Assembly: GCA_019359375.1 (NCBI GenBank)
Contig: JAHHHL010000006.1
Span: forward strand, 1-64,000
Source: Lyngbya sp. HA4199-MV5
GTDB lineage: Bacteria; Cyanobacteriota; Cyanobacteriia; Leptolyngbyales; Leptolyngbyaceae
Length of the DNA stretch: 64,000 nt
Reading direction: 5' to 3'
Shown: positions 19,096 to 57,789 of the stretch, piece by piece
How positions within the stretch are numbered: position 1 is the stretch's first letter
How the letters are laid out: each line of letters starts with the position of its first letter
The notes under the pieces: model-generated
Seen by the model: the letters and a program-made list of their open reading frames with translations, nothing else
What the model was told of the DNA's origin: nothing
The model's database searches: none
Made by a program: the position numbers and the translations under genes

Positions 19096-22000
19096 TCCCG
19101 ACTCATCACCAGCTTGCCATTTGCTAACCGATATATACCTTGCGGTTCCGCGATCGGATCACCCGGTTGCCACGCTCTACTACTCCCGACTCCCGACTCC
19201 CGACTCCCTGCTTCTGGCAGCGATCGCACGTCCCCGGTTGGAAAGGATGCGGTTGGTGCATCACCGGGGCGCACAGGCAAACCACCAGAGCCTGTGATTT
19301 GAAAGACACCGCCTGACTCACGCTTTTTTTCACGATTGCGAACGATGCAGCTATTCGCCAGCAGGGTGTTGGGGTCGATAAATTGTTGAGCTAGCTCTGC
19401 CAGGTTATTTTCGATCACACTGGTATTGAGAGCCGTAATAACCGTGATGCCAGAAGCCCCAAAGCGAGAACTGGTCGTAATGTCATTAGAAGTCAGGAAA
19501 TCACCCGATCGACGCGCAATGCCAAATAATCCTGTACCGCCGTTTATATCATTAATTGTGATGATTCCCCCCGCACCTGTAAACGCTTGAGAGCGAATAT
19601 TACTATTTCGTGATGGAACCGCGATGATAAACGGTGTAGTAATGGTGATCTTACCGCCATCTCCATCAGAGGGTCGCAAGCCAGCCGACGTTGAAATATT
19701 ACTGTTGCGACGGAGGAGTATGTACTCCCTGGAATCTATTTGAACATTGCCGCCCTTTCCTGATAACGTTGCTCCTGTAATGATGCTATTTCGATCTAAT
19801 TCAACATTTCTCGTAGCGATTTCAATATTGCCTGCGGCTCCTTCTAAGCCTCCATTGGCTACGCTAATCGCGGCTCCGTCTGTAAGGGCAACATTTCTGG
19901 CAAGAACTTCAATTCCACCGCCTTTGTTTGTACTATTACCACCCACAGCGCTGAAAATACCGCTTCCCCTGCCTCTGAGCGAGACTTCACCGCTAGTCTG
20001 AACAGAAATCAGTCCCGCATCTCCCTTCCCAAAGGTTGAGGTGGTTAACCCAGAGGCATTGGTTGCAGAGAATGAACCAGCCTGTAGTAGAATTCCACCA
20101 GCGATTCCTACTGCACCTTCCAGTACACTGCTAAAGACAACACTCCTGTTGTCCAGAGAAACCGCACCGTTAGGGGCTTGTAGAAAAACCAATCCAGCAT
20201 TGCCAGTGCCACCCGTTTGAGCTTGCAATTGTGACACGTTCTTCAGGGAGATAGACGCACCTGAGATCACAATGCCACCTGCATTTCCCACGGCTCCAGG
20301 TTGCACGGAACTAAAAATGGTACTGTTGTCCAGGGAAACCGCACCACCAGGGGCTTGTAGAAAAACCAATCCAGCATTACCGACACCGCTGGTTTGGACT
20401 TGCAATTGCGCTCTGTTTTGTAAAGATATAGATCCCCCTGAAATAAAGATATTGCCTGCATTTGCAAATCCACCTTGACCAGAGGTGGCAGAATTAATGA
20501 GGGCACCGTTGCTTAGAGAGAAAGAACCAGCGGTAGTGACCGCAACAGATCCACCCGCGCCCGCATCCCGTGTATCGACGAATAAGCCACTAGTATCAAA
20601 CTCTCGAATTAAAACATCTTGCCTTGTGGTACCCCGTGCATCTGGGCTGCGCACAAATTGGTCTATCTTTCTCAACCGATCCTGGAAATTAGGGTCTCTG
20701 CCTGAAATCGTCACTCGATCGATTGCATTCACGGTGATAATTCCAGCAGATCCTGTGGTTGTTCCACGGGCATCTACGCGGTTGCCGCTAGCCGCCAGAA
20801 TTTGCCCACCTGCCAGAGCTTCAAAGGTTCGGCTATTAATCGTAATGTTGCCACCATTGCCATTGTTACGAGTACTCGCAATGACGGCTCCTCCGGATTC
20901 AACACGAAACAACCCGGCACCAGCATTATTAAAGTTACTAGTTCCTACATCGACAGTGATGTTGCCTGCTGAACCAGACGCTCCCCGCTCACTCAGAGAC
21001 AGCAGACCACTTGAAAAGCCATTGGAGCTGGTACCAGAGATATAAACCAGATCAGAAGCAACAACACCGATATTCCCTCCCTGTCCTCGACCGCCGGGTG
21101 TGACAATTCTGGTTGTTGGATCTGTGGCGGTTCTGAATAGCTCAGTTTGAACCTGGGAACCGCCTGTTAACAGTAAAGCACGTGCCCGAATAAAAATATC
21201 TGATGCTTTACCGTTTCCGCCAGGTTCGACTGTGCCTCGAATTTGGCTACTGCCTGATAGAGAAACGGTATCATCCGCCAGAACTGAAATCAGATCACCC
21301 GCATTTCCCTGCCCGAACGTACTTGATGCAACGTAGGCTCGATTTGTTAAGAATACAGACTTGGCGCTGATTGAAATGTTGCCACCTTCAGCCACCCCCG
21401 ATGCCTGGCTGGTGACCTGCTTTCCTGAAAGGAAGAATGCTCCATTGATGCTTCTGATGTTAATTTCGCCTGCCTGCCCAACCGTTGTGCCCGTTGAAAA
21501 CGCTTGCACATTTCCTGCAAAAATATCGCCAAACGCATCGAAGGTGATTTTACCGCTGATGCCATTCTCGGTCGATGACGATAACGTACCTGCTGTTGTA
21601 TCAATGGAGCCTAGCGCACTAAAGAGGGTGATGTTACCCGAAAATCCGGCACTTCCTGCTCCAACACGAGATTCAATATTCCGCGTGATGATATTGCCAA
21701 GAGCCGTTAATGTGACATTGCCTCCATAGCCGCTCGCGTTTGCTCCCACTAAAGATTGAATGCCTGTCGTAAGCGTATTGCCACTGAAGTCAGGAGCCAA
21801 GGCAGTGGTATTGATAGAACCCCCTCTGCTGGTGATTGTGACTGCTCCAGCCTGCCCTCTACCTCCAGTGCCCACTAAAGATTGAATACCAGCGGTCAAA
21901 ACATCACCTGCCGCATTAATGGTGACAGTGCCACCATTCCCGTTGGTTGCGGATGAATATAACGTTCCAGCGCTGGTATCAACACTGCCATTGCTGCTGA

Positions 22001-23588: not shown

Positions 23589-23675
23589 ATCAGAGCAGCC
23601 TTGAAAAAACGGCAGTCAATTTTTTTAGGTAGTCTAACAGGTAGCCTAAATGGTTACAAAACTACATCGAATGCA

Positions 23676-25736
23676 TTAAGTGCCAATAGGAACAGCCGCA
23701 AGATCATCAAACTTAGCGATCGTGCTGGTGTCTCTAAATTCAGTTAACTCAACGTTGAAAGCGTCATCTTCAAATTGATTGAGAGCCGCGATCGCAGCCG
23801 TTTGAGTGCTACTCACTGGTGCGTTCGCTAGTTGTAAAGTATAGCTGGTATCACCAAGGTATTGATTGACTAAAACAAAGTAATTTCCAGGGGCTAAACC
23901 CGTTGCGTTAATTTGTTCAGGCGTGTTACCAGAAGCGGCGGCGATCGCCAGCACATCCCCTCCATCGATCGTGCCGTTACTATTAAAGTCTCGAATCAGG
24001 ATCAGATCGGCATCTGCCCTTAACCCGCTCAACGAGAGGCTGAGATTGCTGATTGTATTGAGCTGAATGCGGTAGAAATCTTGAGGATCGCCAGCACCCA
24101 CAAAATCACTCACCGTCCGGGTTCCCTGCCAGGTTCCCAGGTTACGAGCGGCTCCCAGCGTGTTTCCAGCCGTTAAAGCCCGAATAGCCGCGTCTGCCTG
24201 AATCAGTCCATAACCGCTACCGAAGTCGAACCCAAGGTCAAAGCCCGGAGTGGACGGATCATCCATATCCAGCGCACTGGCTTCTAGCGCGTCATAGATA
24301 TCAGCAGGGCGCGCGTAGGGGTTGGCTTGTAGTATCAGTGCTGCCACCGCTGCTGCATTGGGTGCCGCCGCTGATGTCCCAAAAAAATTGGGAAAAGTAT
24401 CTGGATCTTGAGAAATATCGCGTCCGACGTTTGTGGTGCCTGTAATGTTCGTACCGTCTGGAGCGACGATGGTTGGCTTCAAGCGCACTTCGCGTGTAGA
24501 GAGACGATGACCAGCCAGGTTAAACAAAATGGGCGTGCCTCCAGGCGACGAGAAGCTTTCTAAGCGGGCAGGGTTTGTGCCATAGGCAGGGGTTTGGAAG
24601 AAGCCAGTGGCTCCCACAGCTAACCCTCCTCTAGCATTGGCATGACCGTAGAGCGTACTGCTGCGAGTGTCATATTCGTTGATCGTGACGTTGGAGTTGC
24701 TGTAAATGACATACTTCATCAAGCCAGGAGCCGGACCGCTCGCGTCGGTAATGACGAGGTTAAAATTTGTACCAAAAGCGCCCGTGTTAGCAAACTGAAT
24801 GGTCTCTACTGGATCGCCACCAATGTTGTAAGCATCACTTTTTGCCAGAAGCCTGGTTCCGGTGCTGTCATAAAGATAGATATCGATGTCATTCAGTGCG
24901 CCCCCGCTGGACGGGCTGACTGACGCGAAAGGTGCATCCCACTGGAAGGCGATCGTCGCCTGGGCACCAACCGGAATGGAAAGACTCTGAAATGGATCAA
25001 CACCTGCACCAGGATTAAAATCATGCACCGCGCCACCATTCAAAACGAAGCCACTTGGATTAAAGCCACTTTCGTAAGAATCACGACCGCTGTTACCGGC
25101 TGAGGAAAAGTAGGAAACGCCTCTAGAGACAACAGAATCAACCGCCTGAGCAATGATGCCGTCCTGAAACATTGGCTCATTGAAGTAACTAATATCATCA
25201 ACGATGATGTTGGCACCCGCGTTTGCTAAAGCAACAATACCTTGAGCAAAATTTGCCTGTCCTCCCGTAGCCGTATGGAAGAGTAGCCGCGCACCTGGAG
25301 CCACATCATGAATCAGTTGCATCATGGCGCGACCTTCATCATTACCGTTCGGTGAGTCCTTCAAAACCCCTACATGGCTCGGTAGATCGCCTGTTGCAAT
25401 ATCAACCGCTGCCTTCCCCAAGGCATTGAAGCTATCGGACAAAATGCCGATCGTGATACCTGTGCCATCCACACCATAAAGGGCACGAGCGATATCAGAG
25501 CGCATCGATCGATCCCCCTGGCTGGTCACTTGCCCTACATTCGTCACAAAATCATTGCCGCTCGTATTGATGCTGTAATCGGGCGCTTGGGAGGCTTGGA
25601 GCGCAACTGGAAAATGGGAATTTAAGGGATCTTGTAAGGTGCCAAACGGTTTCCCATTGGCAGTCAAGGCTGTTGCAGCGGTGGCATGAGTTAAACCAGT
25701 GAGCGCCGTCTGAGTCTTGCAGTCAAAGCTGTTCAT
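23676..25736 (-). CDS. Subtilase (S8/S53-like) serine peptidase with PPC-type C-terminus
   Basis: Start 25736 is set by CGGAGG six bases upstream, giving 686 residues; longer frames ignore it. The catalytic domain shows Asp in IGILSDSFN and Ser in FFGTSAAAPNAAAVAAL. Between them the sequence reads GNDEGRAMMQLIHDVAPGA. Classical subtilisins have a catalytic His here; this subgroup instead has an Glu-Gly-Arg segment, as in S53-like (sedolisin-type) domains with a Ser/Glu/Asp triad. The C-terminal part has a PPC-like beta domain with a calcium-type DFNSNGTIDGGD loop. It is probably exported, though no classical signal peptide is evident. A MITE follows its promoter side at 25938. Confidence 0.82.
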   Translation of the reverse strand: MNSFDCKTQTALTGLTHATAATALTANGKPFGTLQDPLNSHFPVALQASQAPDYSINTSGNDFVTNVGQVTSQGDRSMRSDIARALYGVDGTGITIGILSDSFNALGKAAVDIATGDLPSHVGVLKDSPNGNDEGRAMMQLIHDVAPGARLLFHTATGGQANFAQGIVALANAGANIIVDDISYFNEPMFQDGIIAQAVDSVVSRGVSYFSSAGNSGRDSYESGFNPSGFVLNGGAVHDFNPGAGVDPFQSLSIPVGAQATIAFQWDAPFASVSPSSGGALNDIDIYLYDSTGTRLLAKSDAYNIGGDPVETIQFANTGAFGTNFNLVITDASGPAPGLMKYVIYSNSNVTINEYDTRSSTLYGHANARGGLAVGATGFFQTPAYGTNPARLESFSSPGGTPILFNLAGHRLSTREVRLKPTIVAPDGTNITGTTNVGRDISQDPDTFPNFFGTSAAAPNAAAVAALILQANPYARPADIYDALEASALDMDDPSTPGFDLGFDFGSGYGLIQADAAIRALTAGNTLGAARNLGTWQGTRTVSDFVGAGDPQDFYRIQLNTISNLSLSLSGLRADADLILIRDFNSNGTIDGGDVLAIAAASGNTPEQINATGLAPGNYFVLVNQYLGDTSYTLQLANAPVSSTQTAAIAALNQFEDDAFNVELTEFRDTSTIAKFDDLAAVPIGT

Positions 25737-25937
25737 GGTCATCCTCCGATTAGGGTGGTTGACTTCCACAGTAGGGAAACGCCCCTGGAGACTCACGTAC
25801 CTTTTCTACCAGACTGCTGGCAGCCTTTTGACAACGCAATGGCACGATCGCGCGACCCCATTTGCCGAAAGCTGCCAGCGCAAAGAAACGCTGAAGGTTT
25901 GCGACTGAAGGTTTGCGATCGTGGGCAGCAGTTGCTA

Positions 25938-26062
25938 GGGGCTGTCATCAATTACGATTACACATCAGTTGCAGCAGGGGTTCCAGCCTCTAGCCTGGTG
26001 TGTTGGGGCGGGCGCGATGATGCTGATACTGCAAGGTTTCGGAGCTAATTGATGACGCGCCC
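25938..26062. mobile_element. MITE-like element (family M), copy 2
   Basis: The 125-base element has the same ends as copy 1 (GGGGCTGTCATCAATTA and TAATTGATGACGCGCCC) and TA on each side. It lies in the spacer between the divergent subtilase and DUF928 genes. Confidence 0.82.
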
Positions 26063-26212
26063 TAAGCTACTGGCAAAAAAGCTATTGGCAAAAAAGTGTC
26101 ATTGTTGGCGATGCTGATTGCCGAAATCTACATCACCTCTGACCATAAAGAGGCTGGTTTAATCGGTTGTTCTTCAGTAGTGTGGCAGTAACTTATCCCC
26201 CAATCAACTGAT

Positions 26213-27007
26213 ATGGCTCTGCATCCACGCTCCCAATCACATCGGTTCTGGACGGCTCCTAAGTCAACAGCGACCACCCAGCGTGCAACGGTTTTTGTCA
26301 GCGTTGCACTCCTCTTGTTTCTTACGATTACCCCTGCTGTTTTAGCAAGATACAAGCCCCCCAAGCCCTCTAGACCTTCTGGTACGACGATCGGAACGGT
26401 TGTGAGAGGCGAGGGTTCTTGTGAGGCAAAACCAACCGGATCACTGACTGCCCTTGCGCCTCTGAGTCACATCGGACAAACCACAGCAACGCGTCCAACC
26501 TTTGCCTGGTATGTGCCAGATCAGCAGTCGTATCCGATCGAGTTTCGTCTCTATGCCTACAGCAACAAACGTGACTACATAGTGGAGCAAAGGCAGAGCA
26601 CTCAAGGGGTCATGCAGTATACGCTGCCAAAAAAATACGCTGCTTTAACCCCTGGGCAAACGTATCTCTGGCAAGTAGCGCTTCGATGCGATTTAGGTGA
26701 CGATTCTAAGGATAAAGTCGTGCGGACAGAAGTGGAGGTTGTGGCAATGCCAGCCACGTTGCAAGCGTCTTTAGCCAAAACAGCCGATCGCTTGCAACGG
26801 GCTAACTTGTACGCCGAAGCTGGCTTCTGGTACGATGCGTTTGCTGAAGCCTTAGCAGTCGGCTCTAAAACAGCAGACTCGAAGGCAAAGTCGTTTATGA
26901 TTCCATTGCTAGAGGATTTAGTTGATGTGGAAGAGACAGGGACTTCTAAGGAAGTCAAACAGCAGCATAATCAACTCCGGCAAATAGTGGAAATTGAGCG
27001 ACAGTAA
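26213..27007 (+). CDS. DUF928 family protein
   Basis: The 264-residue protein has an N-terminal export segment (about 25-45, VFVSVALLLFLTITPAVLA) followed by the DUF928 domain: a basic Pro-rich stretch, GEGSCEAK, then ATRPTFAWYVP and the YTLPKKYAALTPGQTYLWQVAL segment. The C-terminal third is helical and resembles the helical-repeat end of the family (LYAEAGFWYDAFAEAL). DUF928 proteins are found mainly in cyanobacteria and often lie beside CHAT-domain genes; here the CHAT gene converges on it with a 21-base gap. The function of the family is unknown. Confidence 0.85.
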   Translation: MALHPRSQSHRFWTAPKSTATTQRATVFVSVALLLFLTITPAVLARYKPPKPSRPSGTTIGTVVRGEGSCEAKPTGSLTALAPLSHIGQTTATRPTFAWYVPDQQSYPIEFRLYAYSNKRDYIVEQRQSTQGVMQYTLPKKYAALTPGQTYLWQVALRCDLGDDSKDKVVRTEVEVVAMPATLQASLAKTADRLQRANLYAEAGFWYDAFAEALAVGSKTADSKAKSFMIPLLEDLVDVEETGTSKEVKQQHNQLRQIVEIERQ

Positions 27008-27028
27008 TCCTGGTTAGTGTAATCGTGG

Positions 27029-29647
27029 TTACTGCCAGTTGCCGACTAGCACAAACGGAGACCAGTAGGCAGGATGGGAAGAATCTGCATCGTTAATCAG
27101 CGCTTGCTGGGCTAACTGGAGCGCTTGAGCTTTATTGAAATTGACATCAGGCAGTTTGGCGTAGAAATCAGTGGCAAGTTTGGCGGTTGCGGCATCATTG
27201 ATTGACCACAGGGATGCCAACGCACTTCTTGCTCCCGCTTGAATCGCTACGCCCGCCAAGCCCAACGAGGATCGATCGTCTCCAACGGCTGTTTCGCAGG
27301 CAGTCAACGTCAGCAACTCCAGCGGTTCGCGGTTACGGGTTGTTTGGCGAATCAGGCGATCGAGTTCGTTCAGCTTTAGTTTCTGGCTGTTGCCCGTCAG
27401 AATGAAGGTATCGTCTGGATCGGTGCCAAATTTACCATGTGTCGCTAGATGAATAATGGGATAAACTGCCCGACTGAGTTCTTTTTGCATCCCAATGGGC
27501 GTGAAGGCATCATCCAGCAATTGCTTACTGCCAGGGATTTTTGCTTCAACGCCTGTAATCTCGTTGCTCACGTTGGTTAGCGCTGGGAACGTCTGGTTAT
27601 CCACGATCGCTTCCTTCGTTAAACCCAGCGCCAGCACTCGTAAACCACTGCGATTGAACGGTTTGACATCGATTGAACTGCGGCTGGGCGTGGTCGCAAT
27701 GGCATACTGTTGAATCAGAAATTTTTCGCCATCGTGTAGCGATGCCATCGGGACACTGCGTAAGATTCCATCTTGCACAAACACCAGCGTTTTGATGTTT
27801 GCCCGCTGCAGGTCATCAGCAAACGGACGAATCAGCCAATCGTATATCTGCTGCGATGGCTGAAGGTCGTATTCCAGGTCGCGATAACGCCGCAAGCCCT
27901 GGCGAAAAGACTTAATTTGGTCAATCAACGCTTGCCGCTTAATGTCATGAAGGACAAGTTTCTTCTGCTCATTGGGCAGGCTTAGAATTATGGCTGTTTG
28001 ATTGTCCAGGATAAACGTGTTGATGATGGCGGCAGTTGGATCCATCGCTTGTTCCTGGCTGGTCGGATTCGCGGCAACAATGACACAATCATTGCCAAAG
28101 TAGTTTTGCAATTCTGCCAGCCTGAGTGAGTCGATCGCCTCCAAAATGCCGTTGAAGTTTTCCTCGCTTTTCGATTCTTCGGTTTTAATTTGGGTGGCTT
28201 TCGTTTGAAGAGGCTGCTCCTGCTCCAGTCTGAGGGCAACAAGTTGGCGGTAAATAGGCTCGATCGTGTCGCGGAAGTCGAATTGCAGGTCGCGGTTGGC
28301 TAACAGAATATCGTCGCGGATGGTTTCTAAGGCAGCGATCGCACGTTGATAAGCCGCGATCGCCGCCTTATGCCGTCCTTGCTGCCGTAAAATGCGCCCA
28401 GTCTGCCACTCCCAGAGATACAGGCTATCGTTTGCCCTGGAGCGATCGGCGGCAAGTCGCGCTTGATCGGTTAATTGGAGTGCTTGCAGAATGTCACCAC
28501 GACACTCTTGCAGATGCCCCTGTGCGCCCAACACAAAGGATGCGGCACGCTGGTCGCTTAAGCGTTGTGCGGTGGCAGCAGCGTCTTTGAGCAGTGTTTC
28601 TGCTTGAGGCAGCAACGCCGCTTCCAAACAAGGACTACGCGATGACGGTTCCTTGATTGCAACAGGTTTCAATAATTGTGCCAAATCAATGGTTGCATAA
28701 ACGCGACTTTGGCTATCAGGCACTCGTGCCAGAACGGCTGTTGCCTGTCGATGAGCTTGCATTGCTGCTGTCGTTTTATCGGTACGGTAGTAGGCAGGAA
28801 TGGCGCTGATGAGCGATCGCAGTTCACCCGCTACATCTCTTTGGCTTTGAGCCAGTTGCAAACCCTGCTGAAACGATTGCAAGGCAATTTCGTCATGCTC
28901 CTTGCCGATCGTCGTGAATCGTCTTTCTTCTTGACTATCGCCCCGCTGATTGGCAGATTCGGCGCGACGGTAGTTCACCTGAGCGAGACTGCTGTAGGCA
29001 TTACCTAAACTATGAAGGGCTGCAATGCGGTAGGCGGGCGTGTCTGGCGCTAGTTCCAGACTGGCTTTTAGCAGCACGATCGCGGCGGGATAATCGCCGA
29101 GTAGCCGCTGAGCATCGCCCAAACTGCCCAATGCAGCGGCTTCACCCTTTTTGTCGTTGGCAGCACGCGCAAGCTGAAGGGCGCTTTCGGGCAAACAAGC
29201 TAACTGGTCGGTCGCCCGGAGTCGATTGAGTTCTTGTCCACATAGCAGGGCGATCGCTTTGCGGGCTTGCCCCAAGCTGCTGTAAACCTGTGCCTGTTCG
29301 GTGAGGCTACGTCCCAACGATTGCAAAGCTTTGGTCTGACGATAGTAAGCGGTGACTTGCTCCCATTGGTCGATCGCGGTATCACTTCGTCCCAGTTGCT
29401 GGTATGCCCGTGCCAGGTTTTCCTGAATAATGGCAGTGTTGGCGCGATCGTTTGGGTCTGCTTCTAGCGCTGCCTTCCAGCGGTCAACAGCCGTTTTGTA
29501 GTCGCCTGCCTGATAGCGATCGACCCCTTGCTGCACCAGTTGTGCAGGACTGACCGCTTGAGCCACCACAACACGACTTAGACTAAGGCACAGAATGATG
29601 CTAGCGATGAATAATCCAAGCAGACGGCAAACACGGCGATTGAGCAT
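27029..29647 (-). CDS. TPR-CHAT domain protein (caspase-like peptidase)
   Basis: Start 29647 gives 872 residues; the 48 upstream codons look non-coding. Residues 1-30 form a signal/anchor (RLLGLFIASIILCLSL). TPR repeats run from about 35 to 450 (for example YQAGDYKTAVDRWKAALEAD). The C-terminal CHAT domain (about 560-872) has the catalytic His in IHLATHGKFG and Cys in LTLTACETAVGD, followed by LAGVAIQAGARSALASLW. CHAT peptidases are related to caspases and separase. With the N-terminal export signal, the protein is probably periplasmic. It is convergent with the DUF928 gene, a common cyanobacterial pairing. Confidence 0.88.
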   Translation of the reverse strand: MLNRRVCRLLGLFIASIILCLSLSRVVVAQAVSPAQLVQQGVDRYQAGDYKTAVDRWKAALEADPNDRANTAIIQENLARAYQQLGRSDTAIDQWEQVTAYYRQTKALQSLGRSLTEQAQVYSSLGQARKAIALLCGQELNRLRATDQLACLPESALQLARAANDKKGEAAALGSLGDAQRLLGDYPAAIVLLKASLELAPDTPAYRIAALHSLGNAYSSLAQVNYRRAESANQRGDSQEERRFTTIGKEHDEIALQSFQQGLQLAQSQRDVAGELRSLISAIPAYYRTDKTTAAMQAHRQATAVLARVPDSQSRVYATIDLAQLLKPVAIKEPSSRSPCLEAALLPQAETLLKDAAATAQRLSDQRAASFVLGAQGHLQECRGDILQALQLTDQARLAADRSRANDSLYLWEWQTGRILRQQGRHKAAIAAYQRAIAALETIRDDILLANRDLQFDFRDTIEPIYRQLVALRLEQEQPLQTKATQIKTEESKSEENFNGILEAIDSLRLAELQNYFGNDCVIVAANPTSQEQAMDPTAAIINTFILDNQTAIILSLPNEQKKLVLHDIKRQALIDQIKSFRQGLRRYRDLEYDLQPSQQIYDWLIRPFADDLQRANIKTLVFVQDGILRSVPMASLHDGEKFLIQQYAIATTPSRSSIDVKPFNRSGLRVLALGLTKEAIVDNQTFPALTNVSNEITGVEAKIPGSKQLLDDAFTPIGMQKELSRAVYPIIHLATHGKFGTDPDDTFILTGNSQKLKLNELDRLIRQTTRNREPLELLTLTACETAVGDDRSSLGLAGVAIQAGARSALASLWSINDAATAKLATDFYAKLPDVNFNKAQALQLAQQALINDADSSHPAYWSPFVLVGNWQ

Positions 29648-29886
29648 AAGGAACGCTGCGATCGACAGGCTGAGTTTGTTCGTTGGGCAGATTGTAGCCT
29701 GAATTTTGGGTCGAAGTAGAATACCATGCCAATGATCATCCAACAGAAGGGTTGAGGTGCATAAGGATTGAGGTGACAGATATTCTGCCACTGAATGTCA
29801 CCCACTGAATGTCACATTGACGCAAAAAATCATTCAACGCATCATAGAGTCGGGAAATGGAAATTATATTGCTTGCTGTCTTTACT
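29648..29886. other. Control region of the TPR-CHAT gene
   Basis: No gene was found. The minus-strand promoter should lie here. A short duplicated GAATGTCAC (about 29791-29815) is visible. Confidence 0.35.
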
Positions 29887-47839: not shown

Positions 47840-48328
47840 ATGCTACTGTCATCTGTGCCCTTTTTACGGCATAACTCCGACCAGCGGTTGGTAATTTTGG
47901 TGGTGGAAGATAGCGATCATGACTTTGTGGCTCTCACGCGCAGTTTGAAACAGTGTGCGTTTACCCAGCCGCTTTATCGAGTCAGCAATGGCGAAGAGGC
48001 GCTGGACTATCTCCATCGACGGGGAGACTATGGTGATCCGATCGCGGCTCCGCGTCCCACACTGATCCTGGTGGATCTCAACCTGCCTGGGATGGATGGA
48101 CGGGAAGTGATTCGCCAGGTGAAGCAGGATGATGCGCTCAAACACATTCCAGTCATTGCCTTGACCAGCTCTGCGAACGCCAAAGATATTGAGCTATGTT
48201 ACCGCTATGGCGCGAATAGCTATATGTTGAAACCGATTGGCGTTGAGCTGTTTCAAGCTAACGTCCGCACCCTCTTGCAATACTGGTTCCATTCCAGCGT
48301 CTTACCTGAAAATGAGCCACCCCTATGA
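47840..48328 (+). CDS. Rcp1-like response regulator
   Basis: The 162-residue protein is a stand-alone receiver of the phytochrome-partner type. It has VVEDSDHD, a longer loop EEALDYLHRRGDYGDP, phosphoacceptor Asp79 (LVDLNLPGMDG), LTSSANAKD and a C-terminal extension (YMLKPIGVELFQ). Rcp1-type regulators follow phytochrome genes in cyanobacteria, matching the phytochrome remnant upstream by four bases. Its original kinase is gone, so it may now take phosphate from another kinase. The stop overlaps the next start as ATGA. Confidence 0.92.
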   Translation: MLLSSVPFLRHNSDQRLVILVVEDSDHDFVALTRSLKQCAFTQPLYRVSNGEEALDYLHRRGDYGDPIAAPRPTLILVDLNLPGMDGREVIRQVKQDDALKHIPVIALTSSANAKDIELCYRYGANSYMLKPIGVELFQANVRTLLQYWFHSSVLPENEPPL

Positions 48329-51300
48329 CGGACGCATTGACCATTCTGATTGTGGATGACTCGGTAACAGACAAATCGGTGTATCGCCGTTTTCTGGAGC
48401 GAGATTCACGCCACACATATCATTTCCTGGAAGCTGGAACTGGAGAAAGGGCGCTGGAGCTGTATCAACAAGCAATGCCCGATCTGGTACTGCTGGATTA
48501 TGCCTTGCCCGATAGCGATGGGTTAGAAATCCTGGAGCAGATGAAACGCGTTAGCCGCTACGATCAGCTTCCGATCGTGATGCTGACGGGGCAGGGCGAT
48601 GAGACGCTTGCCGTGCAAGTGATCAAAAATGGGGCACAAGAATATCTGGTAAAGGGCAAACTGACCGCAGACGTGTTGTGCCGAACGGTGCAAAATGTAG
48701 TGGTGCGAACGCGATTGGCGCAACAGCTAGCCCAACAACAGGAACAACAGCGCCTGGTAAATGCGATCGCCCTCCATATCCGGCAGTCGCTCCAGCTACA
48801 GGATATTCTCAACACGACGGTTCATGATGTCTGTGCCTTTTTGAACGTCGATCGGGTCGTCGTCTACCAGTTTGCGCCTGACATGAGCGGTACCATCACC
48901 GCTGAATTTGTGCTGCCAGGGTGGTCGTCTTGTCTTGATGTACACATTGACGATACTTGCTTTCGCGCCAACTCCGGCAGCGAATACCGTTACGGCAACA
49001 GTCGAGCGATCGCCGACATCCATCAAGCTGGACTCACCGACTGCCACATCAAGCTACTAGAGCGCTTTCAGGTCAAAGCAAACTTGGTTGTACCGATCTT
49101 GTTGGAGAGAGAGGAGAGAGGGGAGAGGGGAGAGGTGTCAGAAGCAGGGGAGGCAGAGGAGGCAGAAGGCAGAGGGCAGGAGGCAGAAGGCAGAGAACAG
49201 AAGACAACTTCAATCCAGAACTCTCATCCCTCATCCCTCATCCCACCGCAAAGCGGAAGCAAGCTACATCCCTCATCCCTCACTCAAAACTCTCACCCCA
49301 CTGCCCACTGCCCACTCCCCACTCCCTCACCCCACCTCTGGGGCTTACTCATCGCGCACCAATGCTCGACCACACGCCAATGGCTTCCAACTGAGTTGGG
49401 ATTGATGGAGCAATTGTCGGTGCAACTGGCGATCGCCATTCGGCAGGCAGAGCTTTACCGAAGCCTGGAAAATCGAGTCGCAGAGCGTACCGTGGAGTTG
49501 CAACAAACCAACGATCGCCTGCAAATTGAATTGCTGGTACGGGAACAGGCAACACGGGCACTGCGCGCGAGTGAAGAGCAGTTTCAGGCTTTTATGGATC
49601 ACAACCCCGCTCCCAGTTGGATCACCGATGGCAAGGGACGACTGCTCTATACCAACCGCACCTACCTTCGCGCCTTTCAGCTACCAGGGGGCGATCCCAT
49701 TGGCAAAACGGTCTTTGAACTGTTTCCAGCCGAGGTTGCCCAGCAGTTTTTTGACACCATTCGCACCGTTGTTGACACCAATCAGGTGGTGGAATCGATC
49801 GAAATGGTTCCTCTGCGGGATGGTACGATCGCCGATTTCTTGGTGTACAAATTTCCCATGCGTAGCTCAACGGGTCAACGTCTGGTCAGCGGGATTGCCG
49901 TCGATATCACCGAACGCCGACGAGCAGAAACCGCTTTGCAGGAAAGTGAAGCCCGCTACCGTGCGATTGTCGAAGACCAGACCGAACTAATTACGCGGTT
50001 TCTGCCCGACGGCACTATCCAGTTTGTCAATGATGCCTACTGTCGCTATTTTGGCGTTCACGAGGATGACATCATTGGTCATAGTTACACCCCCTTTGTG
50101 GCTGAAGCCGATCGGGAGCGGGTCACTCAACTGGTGCAGTCCATGAATGCTGAGAATCCCAGTGTTGTGATCGAAAATCAGGTGGTCAATGCTCAAGGAG
50201 AGAAGCGCTGGACTCAGTGGGCAAACCGGATGTTGTTTGACTCGCAGGGAAACTTTCTGGAATATCAGTCTGTAGGGCGCGATGTCACAGAGCTAAAACA
50301 GGCAGAACAAGCCATCCATGAGAGTGAGGAACGGTTACAACTGGCATTAGAAGCCTCTGGCGATGGCTTGTGGGATTGGAACATTGCAGCCGATAAAATC
50401 TACCTTAGCCCCCGCTGGCTAGAGATGCTAGGCTACACCGCTGACGAATTGCCTCAGAACTTTGATACCTGGGAACAACTGATGCACCCAGATGATGCCG
50501 CGTTGATGAAAAACATCTTAAACGCACATCTGCACGATAGCTCGGTGCCCTACGCGTTTGATTATCGGCTGCGAACCAAAGCGGGCGACTGGAAGTGGAT
50601 TGCTGATTATGGGAAAGTGGTCGCCCGTGATGCTAACGGCAAGCCTCTGCGCATGACAGGTACTCATCGAGATATCAGCGATCGCAAACGAGCTGAACTC
50701 GAACTGCAACGCGCCAAAGAAGTCGCAGAGATCGCAAACCAGACGAAAAGCGTCTTCCTGGCAAACATGAGCCATGAACTGCGAACCCCACTCAACGTGA
50801 TTTTGGGCTTTACCCAGGTCATGAGCCACGACACCGCCCTATCCGCCGAACAGCAGGAAAACCTGCATACCATCCACCGCAGCGGCGATCACCTGCTCAA
50901 CCTGATCAATGATATTCTCGACCTCTCCAAAATTGAAGCCGGACGCATCACCCTCGAAGAAAGCAGCGTTGATCTTTCTGCCCTGCTTCACTCCCTCCAG
51001 GATATGTTTCGCCAGCGCACCGAAATCAAAGGCTTGCAGTTTCACCTCGATCTTGCTCCCGATCTCCCTGCCTACGTCACCACCGACTCCAACAAACTAC
51101 GCCAGGTGTTGATTAACCTGATCGGCAACGCCATTAAGTTCACTGATGAAGGCAGCGTGACGCTGCGAGCTAGAGTGGGGAATGGGGAATGGGACAGGAG
51201 GCAGGAGGCAGAAGGCAGAGGGCAGGAGACAGGAGAAGACACAGGGACACGGAGACGCGGGAACACGGAGAAGTCTGATCAAATTCTCACCCCACACCCC

Positions 51301-52290
51301 ACACCCCACACCCCACACGCCATCCCCCACTCCCTAATCCCTACTCCCTACTCCCTACTCTTCGCCGTCGAAGACACTGGCATTGGCATTGCCTCGGATG
51401 ATACGACTAAAATTTTTGATGCCTTTACCCAAACGCATACATCCAGAGCAACGTTAGAGGGCACAGGGCTGGGGTTAACGATCAGCCGGAAGTTTGTGCA
51501 GTTGATGGGTGGGCAGATTACGGTTACAAGCGCGATCGGGCAAGGCAGCACGTTTCAAATTGAGCTTCCTGTAGAGGTGGCAAAAGCAAATGATGTTCCC
51601 TCCACCCCCGTTCAGCGACGGGTCATTGGACTGGTACCGGGTCAGCCTGCCTATCGGATTCTGGTCGTCGATGATCAGCTTGAAAACCGTCAGTTGCTTG
51701 TGAAGCTGTTAACTCAAGTGGGGTTAGAAGTCCGGGAAGCCAGCGGCGGCGAGCAAGCGGTTCAGGTCTGGCAACAGTGGCATCCCCATCTGATCTGGAT
51801 GGATATTCGGATGCCAGGAGTGGATGGCTATGAAGCGACTCAAGAAATTCGCGCCAATCCTGATGGACAATCGCTAATCATTATTGCCCTCACCGCTCAG
51901 GCATCCAGCAGCGATCGCACCCTTGCCCTCTCCACTGGCTGTAACGACTTCCTCAGCAAGCCCTTTAAAGAAGACGAGTTGTTCGCTAAAATGGCAACCC
52001 ATTTAAATCTGCGCTATACCTATGCCAGCGAAGGCTCGCTCTCTAGAACGCCTGGAAGCCAGAGTGCCGCATCCACCCCAATGGCACTAACCGCTGAAAA
52101 CCTATCGGTCATGCCCTCTCAGTGGATCATCACGCTGCACAACGCTGCCCAAAACTGCGACGACGAAGAGATTTTGAACTTAATCCAATCCATCCCCTCT
52201 ACCCGTACAGCCCTCATCAATGGCTTGAAGCAGCTTGTGCATCATTACGACTTCAAGACACTCAAAACGCTGACTCAATCCGGTAGTTAA
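48325..52290 (+). CDS. Hybrid histidine kinase with DXCF-type cyanobacteriochrome GAF
   Basis: The 1321-residue protein has, in order: a receiver (about 5-125; LLDYALPDSDG); a GAF domain (about 150-395) split by low complexity at about 262-337; three PAS/PAC domains (about 410-785); HisKA with His817 (MSHELRTPLNVILG); HATPase (about 915-1090), split by a second low-complexity insert at about 951-1012; and a receiver with Asp1160 (MDIRMPGVDG). A C-terminal helical tail follows. The GAF contains DDTCF (Cys212) and LTDCHIKLLERF (Cys240), the two Cys motifs of DXCF cyanobacteriochromes, and ends LWGLLIAHQC. A photosensory role is therefore likely. It is translationally coupled to the Rcp1-like gene. 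Confidence 0.9.
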   Translation: MTDALTILIVDDSVTDKSVYRRFLERDSRHTYHFLEAGTGERALELYQQAMPDLVLLDYALPDSDGLEILEQMKRVSRYDQLPIVMLTGQGDETLAVQVIKNGAQEYLVKGKLTADVLCRTVQNVVVRTRLAQQLAQQQEQQRLVNAIALHIRQSLQLQDILNTTVHDVCAFLNVDRVVVYQFAPDMSGTITAEFVLPGWSSCLDVHIDDTCFRANSGSEYRYGNSRAIADIHQAGLTDCHIKLLERFQVKANLVVPILLEREERGERGEVSEAGEAEEAEGRGQEAEGREQKTTSIQNSHPSSLIPPQSGSKLHPSSLTQNSHPTAHCPLPTPSPHLWGLLIAHQCSTTRQWLPTELGLMEQLSVQLAIAIRQAELYRSLENRVAERTVELQQTNDRLQIELLVREQATRALRASEEQFQAFMDHNPAPSWITDGKGRLLYTNRTYLRAFQLPGGDPIGKTVFELFPAEVAQQFFDTIRTVVDTNQVVESIEMVPLRDGTIADFLVYKFPMRSSTGQRLVSGIAVDITERRRAETALQESEARYRAIVEDQTELITRFLPDGTIQFVNDAYCRYFGVHEDDIIGHSYTPFVAEADRERVTQLVQSMNAENPSVVIENQVVNAQGEKRWTQWANRMLFDSQGNFLEYQSVGRDVTELKQAEQAIHESEERLQLALEASGDGLWDWNIAADKIYLSPRWLEMLGYTADELPQNFDTWEQLMHPDDAALMKNILNAHLHDSSVPYAFDYRLRTKAGDWKWIADYGKVVARDANGKPLRMTGTHRDISDRKRAELELQRAKEVAEIANQTKSVFLANMSHELRTPLNVILGFTQVMSHDTALSAEQQENLHTIHRSGDHLLNLINDILDLSKIEAGRITLEESSVDLSALLHSLQDMFRQRTEIKGLQFHLDLAPDLPAYVTTDSNKLRQVLINLIGNAIKFTDEGSVTLRARVGNGEWDRRQEAEGRGQETGEDTGTRRRGNTEKSDQILTPHPTPHTPHAIPHSLIPTPYSLLFAVEDTGIGIASDDTTKIFDAFTQTHTSRATLEGTGLGLTISRKFVQLMGGQITVTSAIGQGSTFQIELPVEVAKANDVPSTPVQRRVIGLVPGQPAYRILVVDDQLENRQLLVKLLTQVGLEVREASGGEQAVQVWQQWHPHLIWMDIRMPGVDGYEATQEIRANPDGQSLIIIALTAQASSSDRTLALSTGCNDFLSKPFKEDELFAKMATHLNLRYTYASEGSLSRTPGSQSAASTPMALTAENLSVMPSQWIITLHNAAQNCDDEEILNLIQSIPSTRTALINGLKQLVHHYDFKTLKTLTQSGS
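49108..49335 (+). repeat. Low-complexity in-frame insert inside the GAF domain
   Basis: GAGAGAGGGGAGAGG, GGCAGAAGGCAGAGG and CTCATCCCTCATCCC units code for about 75 residues. They lie between VVPILL and LWGLLIAHQC, two strands of the GAF core. The frame is preserved. Confidence 0.88.
51175..51360 (+). repeat. Low-complexity in-frame insert inside the HATPase domain
   Basis: GGAGGCAGAAGGCAGAGG, ACACCCCACACCCC and CTACTCCCTACTCC units code for about 62 residues. They lie between the N-box region (LINLIGNAIKFTDEG) and the G1 box (EDTGIGIA). The frame is preserved. Confidence 0.88.
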
Positions 52291-52400: not shown

Positions 52401-55400
52401 TTACCACGGATTGCCAACCATTGTGAAGGCTGCCCAGTAGTAGGGGTGGGAGAGCTGGCGATCGCGAATCGCAAGACTGGCGGGTGGTAAGGGAATGCCT
52501 TCACCTGCTTCAATGCCCTGTAAACGACCGTTCTGTAGAAACACTTTGCCCGTTGCCATCGCGATTTGTGCCTGCCGGAGGGCTTCGGCTTTGATACGCG
52601 CGGTGCGGAGGTCTTTGTAGAAGCCTGTCATAAGAGCAGTGGTGGCGGCATCGCTGACGTACCACAGGCTGGCAACGGCGGTTTTCACGCCTGTTTGAAC
52701 GGCGAGCCCACCGAAACCTAGTTCAGCTTCACGATCGCCCAAGGCTGTAGCACAGGCGCTGAGTACGAGAAGTTCGATCTGCGGATCGTTCCAACCAAGC
52801 TGACGGACTTGATCGAGCCGAAGTTTGTCGTCCCAAAGCTGGATGTAGGAGTTGTCGAGTGCTCCGGGATAAAAGTCAGCGTGGGTTGCCAGATGAATGA
52901 TGCCAAAGGGCTGCTCCTTGCGGAAGGCTTTGAGGTTTTCGAGGGTGACGTTGTTGTTGAAGGCGAGCCGTCCTGACCAGAGTTGGTTGACGAGGATGGA
53001 GACTTCTACAGGCACGGCGGGTAAGGGCGGCTGATCCTGGGTGCTTTCGGAGATACCTAGCCCCAGAACTTTCACATCGCGGATGTCGCGGTAGCGCGTG
53101 TCGGTGAGATTCAGACTGGGCATGACACCAACGCTGTATTTTTCGACGAGAAACGTTTGACCGTCGTTGAGTGCTGCTACGGGCAGCGATCGCAGCCCTG
53201 CATCCATCAAAAACACGAGATTGTTGATGCCTCTGGCTTGCAAGTCGGGCGCGATCGGCGCAATGAGCCACTGATAAAGCTGTCGGCTCATGCCCATATA
53301 GGTATTGGCACGCGTTTTGCGCGGGTCAGAAACCTCAGTGCGAAATTGTTGCGCCAGGGTTAACACCTTGGTACGGGTTGCTTCGGGAAGGCGCTTGCGA
53401 ACCGCTTCGCCTTTGGCGGTAATCATTACGAGTTCAAGCTGGTCGGTGCTGCGGTCGATCGCGGCATCATCCACTTGAAGCTGTTTAGTTTGAGTCTCTT
53501 CAGCCCGATTTAGCGATGCAGGCACAAAGCTGATGTAGATAAAGGCTGGCTTAGCCCCAGTATCTTTTTCAATGCGTTGAGCGACATCTCGCGGGTCTTC
53601 ACGTTTTTTCGGGCGGGTGTCATCCAAACCAAGATAGGTCTCAAAGGTACGGGTGAAACGGTCTTCTGGGGTATCGGGAGTTAGCTCGAAGGTGGGCACC
53701 GGAGTCAGATTTGGTTTGAGATCTGGTTTGGAGCAAACTGTGAGCGCACAGGGATCTGAGATGGTAATCGTTTCTGGGGTTGAGGTTGAAGCCTGGACGT
53801 TCACCTGCACTTGTACTGGATTGGACGTGGAGACTCCATCGCTGGCTCTGAGCGTAAAGGCATTGAGCAACCCAGTCGCATCAACAGGTGGGGTGTAGAC
53901 GAGGACATCCCCTGGTATCAAGGTCGTCGAACCTGCAATGACGGGATTACCGTTACGGGTTAGGGTTGCACCAGGCGCGATCGAAGCAATGGTCAGCGTT
54001 GTTGCGTCCTGGTTGGCATCTGTGACGCTAGGGGCGATCGAGGCATAGCTAATCGTAAACGGCGTGTTTTGGGTAGCAACCGACAGAATGGTGTTGGCGC
54101 TTAACGTGGGCGGTGTGTTGAGCGCGGTCAGAGCAATGCCAGTGGCGGGTACGACGGTGATGGTGTTTGCCTGTACCGGAAAGATTCCAGAGGCGATGAC
54201 GTTGCCGCCGCCCCGATTGATTGCGCCTGCGGTGCCGTTGGTGCTGGCTGCTCCCACAACAAACGGTGCATTACTGGAACCACCATCGTGCTGAATCGCT
54301 ACTGTGCCACCTGTATTTGACCCTTGAGTGTCGATCGTGGTGCCTGCTTGGGTACCTTGCACCAACCCCGTCGCCGTAACCGCTACATTGCCCCCTACGC
54401 CCGTCGCGGGAACCAGGGCTTCGGTGCCGCGCGTGTCGATGCGTGTAAAGGTGATGTTGCTACCAGGGGCAGAACCAGCGGTCAGCGTCACGTCTCCTCC
54501 CTGATAGGCGGGGGTGCCGATCGCAAAGGTAGCGTTTGAAATGGCTGAGGCGTTGATGGTGCCAGTCAAAATGCTGCTTCCAGCTTGCAGCGTGACATTG
54601 CCACCCTGAGCGCCATAGCCATTGCCCCCTGCATAGAACGAGTTGAGATCGTTTGTAGTGATGGAGCCGCCAGCGGTCAGGCTAATGTCTCCTCCGCTTA
54701 AAGGAGTGCCAAACGAGCTACCTGTAGAGGACGTGTCGATCGTGCCCGTGGTGATGTTACCAGGAGCAGACAGAATAACCGGTCCACCATTGTCAAAGCC
54801 TGCACCGCTAGTGGTGATATTGCCCGTCGTAATATTGCCAGCAGTGGTGCGTAGAATGAGCGCTCGGCTCGTCGTCAGCAAACCCGAATCGGGATCACCC
54901 GTTGCAGTAGCATCTGCGCCCGTAATGACGATCGGTCCTGTAAAGGTAATATCGCCGCCTGCCTGCACTTTGAGGGCAACCCCTGTGTAAGCACCAAACG
55001 TAAACGCTCCAGCCACGGTAAAAATTGGGTCGTAAAGGCTGGTGAAGTTGCCTGGGCCACCTGATAAGGTCTGTACCGTCAAATTGCCGCCGTTGGTAAA
55101 ATGCGAATCACCCGAAATGACACCATCGCTGATCAAGCTCAGATCACCGCCACTCTGAAAGGGTGCCGTTTGCAAATGGTTGAGTGCCAGAATATCGATG
55201 CCCCGATCGCCCTGAATGGTCAGCTTTCCGCCTGCGTTTGCCGTAAACGGATTGGCAACACTATCGCGGATAAACACCGTATCGCGTGCCAGTAAATTCA
55301 AGTCGCCTGTCGTTTGTAGCTGGCTTTCGACCAGCGTGAGGTTGCGACTGGCATACAGGGTGGCTGTTTGAGCTGTAGCGGTGCGAACGACCCCATCACC

Positions 55401-57047
55401 TGCCAAAATTGGGGTGCCTGAACCCGTCAAAACAACAGTGCCGTCGGGATTTGTGCTGATCCCTGTGGCGTTGCCCAAACTGCCCCCGGTTAGCAGTTGA
55501 GGAAGGGACGCGATCGGCAAATTCCAGACCTGTGGCAAGGTCGCTGGCTGGGCGGGCGTGATCGACTGAATTTCCAGGCTGAGAAGGCTTCCAGGCTGGC
55601 TGAGCTTGACGAGACTCTGACCCGGTACAGCGGCAGCAAGAACCTGTCCTCCGGGTGCAGAGAGGGTGCCTGTGCTGACGATCGTGCCACCCAGTAACGC
55701 CAGGGTTTGTCCCGCTGTGACAGCCAAATTGCCAAAGTTCACGATGCTACCAGGTTGGTCGGTCGTGAACGCAAAGCTACCGGGCGTTCCGCTAAGGGCA
55801 GCGTAATTATTAGTGCCAGTCGCGCTAAACCAGTTGTTTCCGAATCCAATACCCGTAGCGGTTGTAGCGGTAAACGAAGCAGGCACGTTCAGGCTGGCAT
55901 TCGCGCCAAAAATAATGCCCGCCGGATTCAGCAGAAACAGGTTTGCGTTGCTGCCCGTCACCTGAAGTTGCCCATTGATATTGGACGCTTCCCCACCAAC
56001 AACTCGTCCCAAAATGTTTTGAATTTGAGGATTCGCCAGAAAATTTGCCGTCTCGTTGGCGGACAGTCCAAACCGCTGGAAACTCTGAAATAGGTTGGTA
56101 CCTGATTGGGTGCCGCCGCCAATGTCGTAACGATCGCCGCTAAGGGTCACGCTGGTATTTGTCCCATCTGGTGCAGCAGTGATGGATTGAGCGCGGACGG
56201 ATAACCCGGTTGCCAGTCCTAGCAACGGCAGGGTTGCCAGCAGAGAACCCATCTTCGCCACCAGGGCGGGTGTAGCAGGAGTGGGTGACACCTTGCGCCG
56301 GAGAAAAAAACGTCCTTCGGGTAATCGGACTTCGACTGCAAACTGGTCTGCTAAGCCGCGACGTTTGAGCGCCTGGGTAATGACCGATCGCGATCGCAAC
56401 ACCTGTTCCAACCGCCACTGCTGAGACGCGCTGCCAGCATGATTGCGATAGTAGTAAAGCGGCTGCTTCACCTGGCAAATCTCAGTGGCTTCGGATAATC
56501 GCAGGCAAAGATCGTAGTCTTCCACGTAGTCTGAGGCACCGCTGATACCGCCCACCTGCTCAAACACCGATCGCCGCAGCAAGCGAAAGTGGAAGGTCAT
56601 GAAATCGATCAATAGCCGCTCTTGGGAGTAAGGAATACGGCAGCGATCGCCATACCTGATCACGCTGCCCTGCTCATCCATATCCAGGTAATCGGTGTAG
56701 ACCATTCCGATCTTTGGCTGCTGCTGCAACACCTGCACTGTTTGTTCAAGTGCTGTTGGAGCCAGCAAGTCATCGCTGTCCACCCAGCCGAGATAGGTGC
56801 CTGTCGTATGGGCGATCGCCGCCCGCAGCGCTGGCACCCGTCCTCGATGGGCAGCCGCAACCACCCGCACTCGCGCATCCTGTTGGGCATACTGATCGGC
56901 AATGGCAACGGAGCGATCGTCGGAACCGTCATCCCAAACCAGCAACTCAAAATCGGTAAACGTTTGTTGAAGAACACTCTCGATCGCGCCCTTGAGATAG
57001 GCTTCCCGGTCATAGGTTGTGATAATAAGCGAAATCAGAGGTGACAT
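52401..57047 (-). CDS. GT2 glycosyltransferase / TPS haemagglutinin / CHAT fusion
   Basis: Start 57047 follows AAGG with six bases spacing, giving 1548 residues in one uninterrupted frame. Residues about 1-240 are a family-2 glycosyltransferase: ISLIITTYDRE, WDDGSDDRS, VDSDD (Asp at 90, 92, 93) and YVEDYDLCLRL. From about 255 a basic stretch leads into a signal-like segment, MGSLLATLPLLGLATGLSVRAQS (Met at 266). The TPS haemagglutination domain follows (about 290-420; NLFLLNPAGIIFGA), then beta-helix repeats to about 1000. A linker with Cys-Pro pairs leads to a CHAT peptidase domain (about 1160-1548; HLATHADFYPG and LSACATALGD). A cytoplasmic glycosyltransferase fused ahead of a secretion signal is topologically odd. 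Two separate proteins, the second starting at 56252, are the alternative. Confidence 0.85.
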   Translation of the reverse strand: MSPLISLIITTYDREAYLKGAIESVLQQTFTDFELLVWDDGSDDRSVAIADQYAQQDARVRVVAAAHRGRVPALRAAIAHTTGTYLGWVDSDDLLAPTALEQTVQVLQQQPKIGMVYTDYLDMDEQGSVIRYGDRCRIPYSQERLLIDFMTFHFRLLRRSVFEQVGGISGASDYVEDYDLCLRLSEATEICQVKQPLYYYRNHAGSASQQWRLEQVLRSRSVITQALKRRGLADQFAVEVRLPEGRFFLRRKVSPTPATPALVAKMGSLLATLPLLGLATGLSVRAQSITAAPDGTNTSVTLSGDRYDIGGGTQSGTNLFQSFQRFGLSANETANFLANPQIQNILGRVVGGEASNINGQLQVTGSNANLFLLNPAGIIFGANASLNVPASFTATTATGIGFGNNWFSATGTNNYAALSGTPGSFAFTTDQPGSIVNFGNLAVTAGQTLALLGGTIVSTGTLSAPGGQVLAAAVPGQSLVKLSQPGSLLSLEIQSITPAQPATLPQVWNLPIASLPQLLTGGSLGNATGISTNPDGTVVLTGSGTPILAGDGVVRTATAQTATLYASRNLTLVESQLQTTGDLNLLARDTVFIRDSVANPFTANAGGKLTIQGDRGIDILALNHLQTAPFQSGGDLSLISDGVISGDSHFTNGGNLTVQTLSGGPGNFTSLYDPIFTVAGAFTFGAYTGVALKVQAGGDITFTGPIVITGADATATGDPDSGLLTTSRALILRTTAGNITTGNITTSGAGFDNGGPVILSAPGNITTGTIDTSSTGSSFGTPLSGGDISLTAGGSITTNDLNSFYAGGNGYGAQGGNVTLQAGSSILTGTINASAISNATFAIGTPAYQGGDVTLTAGSAPGSNITFTRIDTRGTEALVPATGVGGNVAVTATGLVQGTQAGTTIDTQGSNTGGTVAIQHDGGSSNAPFVVGAASTNGTAGAINRGGGNVIASGIFPVQANTITVVPATGIALTALNTPPTLSANTILSVATQNTPFTISYASIAPSVTDANQDATTLTIASIAPGATLTRNGNPVIAGSTTLIPGDVLVYTPPVDATGLLNAFTLRASDGVSTSNPVQVQVNVQASTSTPETITISDPCALTVCSKPDLKPNLTPVPTFELTPDTPEDRFTRTFETYLGLDDTRPKKREDPRDVAQRIEKDTGAKPAFIYISFVPASLNRAEETQTKQLQVDDAAIDRSTDQLELVMITAKGEAVRKRLPEATRTKVLTLAQQFRTEVSDPRKTRANTYMGMSRQLYQWLIAPIAPDLQARGINNLVFLMDAGLRSLPVAALNDGQTFLVEKYSVGVMPSLNLTDTRYRDIRDVKVLGLGISESTQDQPPLPAVPVEVSILVNQLWSGRLAFNNNVTLENLKAFRKEQPFGIIHLATHADFYPGALDNSYIQLWDDKLRLDQVRQLGWNDPQIELLVLSACATALGDREAELGFGGLAVQTGVKTAVASLWYVSDAATTALMTGFYKDLRTARIKAEALRQAQIAMATGKVFLQNGRLQGIEAGEGIPLPPASLAIRDRQLSHPYYWAAFTMVGNPW

Positions 57048-57288
57048 AGTGTGCCTTGAGAATAGAACCAATCACGGACTCTAGCGGCGCTTGACGTGAT
57101 GACTCAAGACGCAGCTAGAGCATGTCAGTAAGGGCGTGTTGTCTTTAAAAGCAGATCAACGCCTCAAGCACTGATCCTGAAGATGGTATAAAACTTGACA
57201 AAAGCACCCCACGATCGCTCTGATGAATCGCTTTAAACGATCGTCAGACCACTAAGTTATCTTCCCTGCATCCGGTATGGCTGAAGTG
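57048..57288. other. Spacer, nothing assigned
   Basis: No gene was found in either strand. The promoter of the giant minus-strand gene should lie here, but no clear elements were identified. Confidence 0.35.
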
Positions 57289-57789
57289 TTAATGATCGTT
57301 AAACTGTAAGCCCACAATCACCAGATCACGAGGAATGGTCTCAAACTCTGCCACCCCAGGCAAATAGCCCCACTGCTGAAAGCCAAACTGTTCAAAGAGG
57401 CGCAGGCTGGGCTGGTTGTGAGCAAAGATAAAGCCCAACAGCGTTTTGATGTGGAAAGATGGACTGCGCGCGATCGCCTGCTTCAAAAGCGCCTGCCCAA
57501 TGCCCTGCCGACGATACGCTGGCGAAACATAGATGCTTAACTCTGCGGCAATATCGTATGCCGATCGCCCGTAGTAGAACGACTGAAAGCCCAGCCAGCC
57601 CGCGACTTCATTGTCTGCATCCATGACCCACAGCGGTCGTTTGTCAGCCGTATGCGCGCGAAACCAGGGCAAGCGACTTTCCACCGTAACGGGAGCCAAA
57701 TCGGCGGTGACGGTATGACAGGCGATCGTTGAGTTATAGATCGCTACGATCGTGGCTAAATCTGCTTCTACTGCGTCGCGAATGTGCAT
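57289..57789 (-). CDS. GNAT acetyltransferase (phosphinothricin-acetyltransferase-like)
   Basis: The 166-residue enzyme is a GNAT acetyltransferase that uses acetyl-CoA. MHIRDAVEADLATIVAIYN is the typical N-terminus of the Pat/phosphinothricin acetyltransferase branch. The acetyl-CoA loop reads VSPAYRRQGIGQALLKQAI (Q/R-x-x-G-x-G/A), followed by NQPSLRLFEQFGFQQWGYLP. The natural substrate may be a toxic amine or amino acid. It stands alone on the minus strand, diverging from the tRNA. Confidence 0.9.
   Translation of the reverse strand: MHIRDAVEADLATIVAIYNSTIACHTVTADLAPVTVESRLPWFRAHTADKRPLWVMDADNEVAGWLGFQSFYYGRSAYDIAAELSIYVSPAYRRQGIGQALLKQAIARSPSFHIKTLLGFIFAHNQPSLRLFEQFGFQQWGYLPGVAEFETIPRDLVIVGLQFNDH

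Follow-up and report, generated by a model that had tools for sequence, protein, structure and literature searches.

The minus-strand frame at positions 52401–57047 of the window, by which is meant the whole 64,000-nucleotide stretch of DNA that was analysed, was found to be a single intact coding sequence of 1,548 amino acids, open and without stops, in which a GT2 glycosyltransferase domain is followed by an internal signal peptide, a TPS secretion domain, a beta-helical passenger and a CHAT peptidase domain. This architecture, assigned with Pfam, was common to 58 genes that carry the domains in one frame and in the same order. An earlier note on this DNA had described one frame joining GT2, TPS and CHAT domains; that observation was confirmed and is stronger than stated, and the interpretation attached to it was partly supported. 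The reading that we favour, at a probability of roughly 0.5, is that the protein is a TpsA exoprotein with a cut leader. Thus, the GT2 domain and the exoprotein would be made as one chain, engaged by Sec, cut by signal peptidase and exported through TpsB, with the passenger likely glycosylated in cis. The single frame, the domain order, the signal and cleavage motif, the catalytic motifs and, in Nostocales, the linkage to TpsB are features of the sequence itself, from which we infer cleavage, topology, export and, with most reserve, glycosylation of the passenger.

These results suggest that the enzyme which modifies a secreted protein, here presumably by sugar transfer, can be built into that protein as a leader that comes off, which would be a natural way to couple modification with export. 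Whether the leader of a TPS exoprotein acts in cis on the rest of the chain thereby becomes a testable question. Filamentous cyanobacteria have conserved the fusion, and many of them have a dedicated TpsB for it. CHAT domains have been studied mostly within cells, and the fused protein would add to their family a peptidase delivered to the surface.

The fused gene and its distribution

Pfam matches to the GT2 (E 8e-32), TPS (E 8e-41) and CHAT (E 3e-69) families were all far over the curated cut-offs. The frame could be opened by a TTG (52401–57071) or an ATG (52401–57047), and the ATG at 57047 was the better start, with AAGG six bases upstream and agreement from the N-termini of relatives. In an AlphaFold model of residues 1–520, a GT-A fold extended to about residue 251, disorder spanned residues 255–283, where the linker and the signal segment lie, and the beta-helix of TPS began at about residue 290. 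Values of dN/dS for the window gene compared with that of Stenomitos rutilans were 0.08 for GT2, 0.18 for the linker, 0.05 for the signal, 0.04 for TPS, 0.09 for the passenger and 0.02 for CHAT, and values for all six parts were well below 1 in every computable comparison, which points to purifying selection on all parts of the fused gene, linker included.

A scan for the GT2 domain across 84,980 species, each represented by one genome, yielded 80 named loci. The earlier note had proposed a search for the same domain order in other cyanobacteria, and GT2 and TPS were found to share one frame at 56 of these 80 related cyanobacterial loci, with fused genes in Stenomitos, Leptolyngbya, Tildeniella, Trichocoleus, Coleofasciculus, Phormidium, Xenococcaceae and many Nostocales. 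CHAT terminated every fused frame that was not cut by a contig end, except in L064, which has an insert of about 1.3 kb. The remaining frame exceptions among fused GT2s were one decayed gene (L119), one gene split by a small insert (L068) and two genes at contig ends (L066 and L073); all of these exceptions, L064 among them, come down to contig ends or recent damage. Among 390 genomes of the class that formed a separate set, 61 had a close GT2, roughly 29 of them in a frame of at least 1,000 aa, as counted by length and not by a check of the domains one by one. In the GT2 tree, scored after removal of contig ends and with damaged copies taken as fused, one change on a branch without support parted fused from standalone domains. 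The fused label was strongly clustered in the TPS and CHAT trees, which fit a single origin as well as several.

A second GT2-TPS-CHAT gene (G000:C88; 1,635 aa), 65% identical to the first over the first 540 residues, was present in the same genome. Since the fusion recurs at this second locus and at 56 of the 80 named loci, it is due neither to chance nor to assembly error. A sequencing or assembly artefact joining neighbouring genes, which the earlier note had allowed for, was thus refuted and has a negligible probability: one copy is a paralog within this very genome, and the related loci, more than 50 in number with the 56 named ones, come from many independent assemblies, while no support for an artefact was found, the split in L068 being the work of a small insert.

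The second copy corresponds to L021:40–6081 and has counterparts at L062:3499–9654 and L065:3480–9581. In these three species it ends a conserved cluster of genes for a glucose-1-phosphate cytidylyltransferase, an L-2-hydroxyglutarate oxidase-like protein, an NAD epimerase, a GT2 and a DRL-type oxidoreductase; these CDP-sugar genes fit a use of nucleotide sugar and leave the acceptor unnamed. Directly upstream of the fused gene in the window is a GNAT acetyltransferase gene (57289–57789), the position of which is kept in the four closest relatives (L056–L059). A search of a defence-system library gave no match.

The linker and internal signal peptide

The signal-like segment that the earlier note had described ahead of the TPS domain proved to be general. 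In the window gene this putative signal peptide spans residues 250–286 (56190–56300, minus strand, as for all other parts of the fused gene) and consists of a basic RRK, a hydrophobic core and a predicted cut after SVRA, between A286 and Q287; it was disordered in the model. As judged by hydropathy and motif, a hydrophobic core and an AxA-Q-like site of signal-peptidase type occurred in the GT2-TPS linker of 58 of 58 fused genes, with a mean net charge of +2.9 just ahead of the core, and in Nostoc the GT2 C-terminus GRFILRRKK itself forms the basic n-region. A Sec signal thus appears to precede the TPS domain as in other TpsA proteins, yet it is internal and follows a 250-aa domain. In bacteria it is unusual for an enzyme domain to precede a signal peptide that is internal and apparently cleavable. 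Similar AxA-Q sites and mature starts were noted in TPS-CHAT proteins that lack GT2.

The earlier note had also suggested that the frame may give two products, with a separate start at an in-frame ATG (M266; 56250–56252). Separate translation of GT2 from 57047 and of TPS-CHAT from 56252 has in its favour a G-rich stretch upstream of this ATG in the window gene, but the ATG was present in close relatives only. Between GT2 and the signal core, 51 of the 58 genes had no ATG and 15 had no ATG, GTG or TTG, and since these 15 lack any possible start codon, internal initiation is not the mechanism of the family. Furthermore, a start at M266 would give the signal MGSLLATLPLLG, in which a basic n-region with positive charges is missing. 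The linkers were of 30 distinct lengths (34–237 aa) and always in frame; several with repeat-derived inserts were still read through (L057, L070 and L099), and a frame kept through long inserts would be needless for separate genes. Shine-Dalgarno-like motifs, rare even at GT2 starts (20/57), cannot discriminate between starts. Internal initiation at 56252 was therefore rejected for the family and keeps a slim chance in the window gene alone, which makes two separately translated products highly improbable. What stands of the suggestion is the pair of products, likely to arise through signal-peptidase cleavage and not from a second start.

On the favoured reading, ribosomes would make one chain, a TpsA exoprotein with a whole, active-looking GT2 as its long leader. 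The GT2 part would fold in the cytoplasm, the site of nucleotide sugars, and the internal signal peptide would then engage Sec with GT2 held on the cytoplasmic side. Signal peptidase would cut after AxA and free the rest of the chain, the signal remnant would anchor GT2 at the inner membrane, and TpsB would export the freed TPS-beta-helix-CHAT chain to the cell surface.

The hybrid histidine kinase gene adjoining the fused gene (48325–52290) was noted to contain in-frame low-complexity repeats (EAEGRGQE..., PTPHTPH...) similar to in-frame inserts in the fused-gene linkers of L057, L070 and L072. A repeat family seems to enter coding linkers and to leave the frame unbroken.

Export partners, passenger and CHAT domain

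The TPS domain (55566–56171; PF05860) contains NPAGIIFG at 55905–55928 and was a beta-helix in the AlphaFold model. The Pfam match starts 7 residues past the predicted cleavage site, near the mature N-terminus as in TpsA (type Vb) proteins. A divergent TpsB gene was located 89–455 nt upstream of the fused gene at 38 of 56 fused loci compared with 0 of 24 standalone GT2 loci, and at 37 Nostocales loci TpsB (36/37) was the sole conserved neighbour. In the window's own genus no TpsB adjoined the fused gene. In the TpsB tree, partners of fused genes grouped with two TpsBs of the window's genome, the one at G000:C31, which has no neighbouring TpsA, and the one at G000:C42; these unlinked genes of the right clade are candidate partners of the window gene. 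The TpsB at 17374, which had been named as the partner, was apart from the TpsBs paired with fused genes, on a starred branch in another clade. On this linkage and this tree, the fused protein can very probably be counted as a true TpsA, and the named partner, an unlikely one, is probably wrong. The TpsB at 17374 belongs to a cluster (17374–29791) that also encodes a 1,501-aa TpsA, an S8 peptidase and a TPR-CHAT protein.

TPS-CHAT proteins without GT2 (among them G000:C42, C87 and L140–L158) had the same TPS domain, AxA-Q mature start and C-terminal CHAT as the fused proteins, but mostly carried a conventional signal peptide near the N-terminus, in no case with a glycosyltransferase, and had longer passengers (median 1,280 compared with 882 aa for fused proteins). 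In two TPS-CHAT proteins (L023:1781–9331 and L149), approximately 290–310 residues were noted ahead of TPS, with no Pfam family match for the L023 leader, and other long TpsA leaders may thus exist.

The beta-helical passenger and linker of the window gene (53508–55565) were modelled by AlphaFold as strands, confidently in the middle part only, and include a Cx4C motif, PCALTVC, at 53733–53753. Ahead of CHAT, 34 of 51 fused proteins had a cysteine pair that fits PC-x(2-6)-C, compared with 2 of 20 non-fused TPS-CHAT proteins, a difference that could be explained by shared ancestry among Nostocales. A C-terminal cysteine pair is also used in tethering of Haemophilus HMW1 (PMC3983070).

The CHAT domain (52410–53288; PF12770) has its predicted catalytic His in HLATHA (52878–52895) and Cys in LSACATAL (52740–52763), and the dyad motifs that mark CHAT were found in 51 of 51 fused proteins reaching this domain. 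In the three comparisons that included CHAT, no other part of the fused protein was as conserved (dN/dS of 0.02–0.04 for CHAT). The AlphaFold model of passenger and CHAT had a mean pLDDT of 57.6, the CHAT part being unusable, and a PDB search with the CHAT sequence, run to an E value of 1, gave no match. A CHAT domain with His and Cys motifs is shared with TPR-CHAT/Csx29 and HetF, which are CRISPR-associated or divisome proteins, whereas CHAT of the fused protein follows a TPS domain and a signal peptide. Caspase-like domains at the C-terminus of secreted polymorphic toxins have been proposed to act as releasing peptidases or as toxic warheads (PMC3482391), and by this precedent CHAT could be a warhead that GT2 protects or activates in the producer. 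This is very unlikely, as no conserved immunity-like gene was noted beside the 37 Nostocales loci and CHAT, among the most conserved parts, is not a swapped cassette; neither the adjacent immunity gene nor the variable C-terminal cassette of polymorphic toxins was found. No paper naming both a CHAT domain and two-partner secretion was found in the open-licence literature. One proteomic paper reports a Nostoc CHAT-domain protein by a single weak peptide, SLSLLGGTVV, which resembles the TPS domain and is too weak as evidence.

The GT2 domain and its acceptor

The GT2 domain comprises residues 1–251 (56295–57047) with a C-terminal beta-hairpin ending in LRRK, as indicated by Pfam, the AlphaFold model (pLDDT over 90 for most of residues 1–120) and fold matching. 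The nucleotide-sugar motif VDSDD (residues 89–93; 56769–56783) and the acceptor/catalytic-base motif VEDYD (residues 175–179; 56511–56525) conform to DxDD and DYD, respectively, both of which were intact in 58 of 58 fused proteins; D177-Y178 was invariant in the alignment and the preceding E varied. The GT-A fold, DxD and catalytic Asp of GT2 enzymes were thus all identified, and standalone GT2 relatives end near the same point, so that sequence and model indicate a complete enzyme. Because the motifs are intact and the domain is under purifying selection (dN/dS approximately 0.08–0.11 across it), the GT2 is probably active. The same results weigh against a GT2 that is catalytically idle today and serves as a folded leader to slow targeting or tether the passenger, in effect an extreme form of the extended signal peptide carried by TpsA proteins such as HMW1 (PMC3983070); we consider this very unlikely.

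The best fold match was chondroitin polymerase K4CP (2z86), which with CgT/GalT1 (5hea) and SpsA shares fold and family with the fused GT2, although the K4CP chain, at about 600 residues, amounts to more than one GT domain. To our knowledge, no solved entry among these three is joined to a secretion domain. The nearest solved GT2s are polysaccharide enzymes, chondroitin polymerase for example, and not proven protein glycosyltransferases.

Because it is fused to a TpsA, the GT2 would most likely add sugar, ahead of translocation, to its own passenger or to a partner that shares its export site, and so do in cis the job of the third partner, HMW1C, of Haemophilus. HMW1C is encoded by a separate gene and here the glycosyltransferase lies inside the TpsA chain. 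HMW1C also belongs to GT41, another glycosyltransferase family than GT2, and the fused enzyme, a GT2, is not of the GT41/HMW1C family. The HMW1A/HMW1B/HMW1C system of Haemophilus influenzae is otherwise alike in its cytoplasmic TpsA, cut extended signal peptide, dedicated TpsB and cytoplasmic glycosyltransferase (PMC3983070). Glycosylation of HMW1 takes place in the cytoplasm before Sec export, and the protein depends on it for stability and for tethering at the surface; the extended signal peptide of HMW1 is cleaved by signal peptidase I (PMC3983070). A CHAT domain, present in the fused protein, does not figure in this description of HMW1 (PMC3983070).

The claim in the earlier note that the protein glycosylates its own C-terminus before export is thus plausible by analogy with HMW1C, but drew no direct support from the passenger, which bears no sequence signature of such modification. 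The density of N-X-S/T sequons was 2.34 per 100 aa in fused and 2.17 in non-fused passengers, and Ser plus Thr fractions were 0.217 and 0.214, with no difference, and therefore no enrichment, in either case. TPS-CHAT proteins without GT2 are also numerous, which, like the missing neighbour TpsB in the window's own genus, counts against the favoured reading. The fuller proposal, that GT2 as a cleavable leader modifies the passenger from the same ribosome and that the cut leaves an enzyme facing the cytoplasm and a glycosylated CHAT peptidase delivered to the surface, is slightly less likely than not.

The main rival, possible though doubtful, is that the freed inner-membrane GT2 acts in trans, with sheath, exopolysaccharide or lipid-linked glycans as its targets, and that the fusion does no more than provide equal dosage and a shared location with the exported CHAT protein. 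The polysaccharide-making enzymes among the closest structures, the passenger composition just described and the sugar-nucleotide cluster with another GT2 that borders the second copy are all consistent with a role in trans. Against it, the fusion has stayed in frame across deep divergence, yet neighbours other than TpsB are not conserved in Nostocales, and no polysaccharide genes are conserved beside those copies.

No account of a GT2-TPS fusion was found among the titles and abstracts consulted in the open-licence literature. On three plasmid records (AP018208, AP018308 and AP018293), standalone GT2 genes were labelled "filamentous hemagglutinin outer membrane protein", an annotation that probably leaked from fused relatives and suggests that the fusion has so far been met mainly by annotation pipelines.
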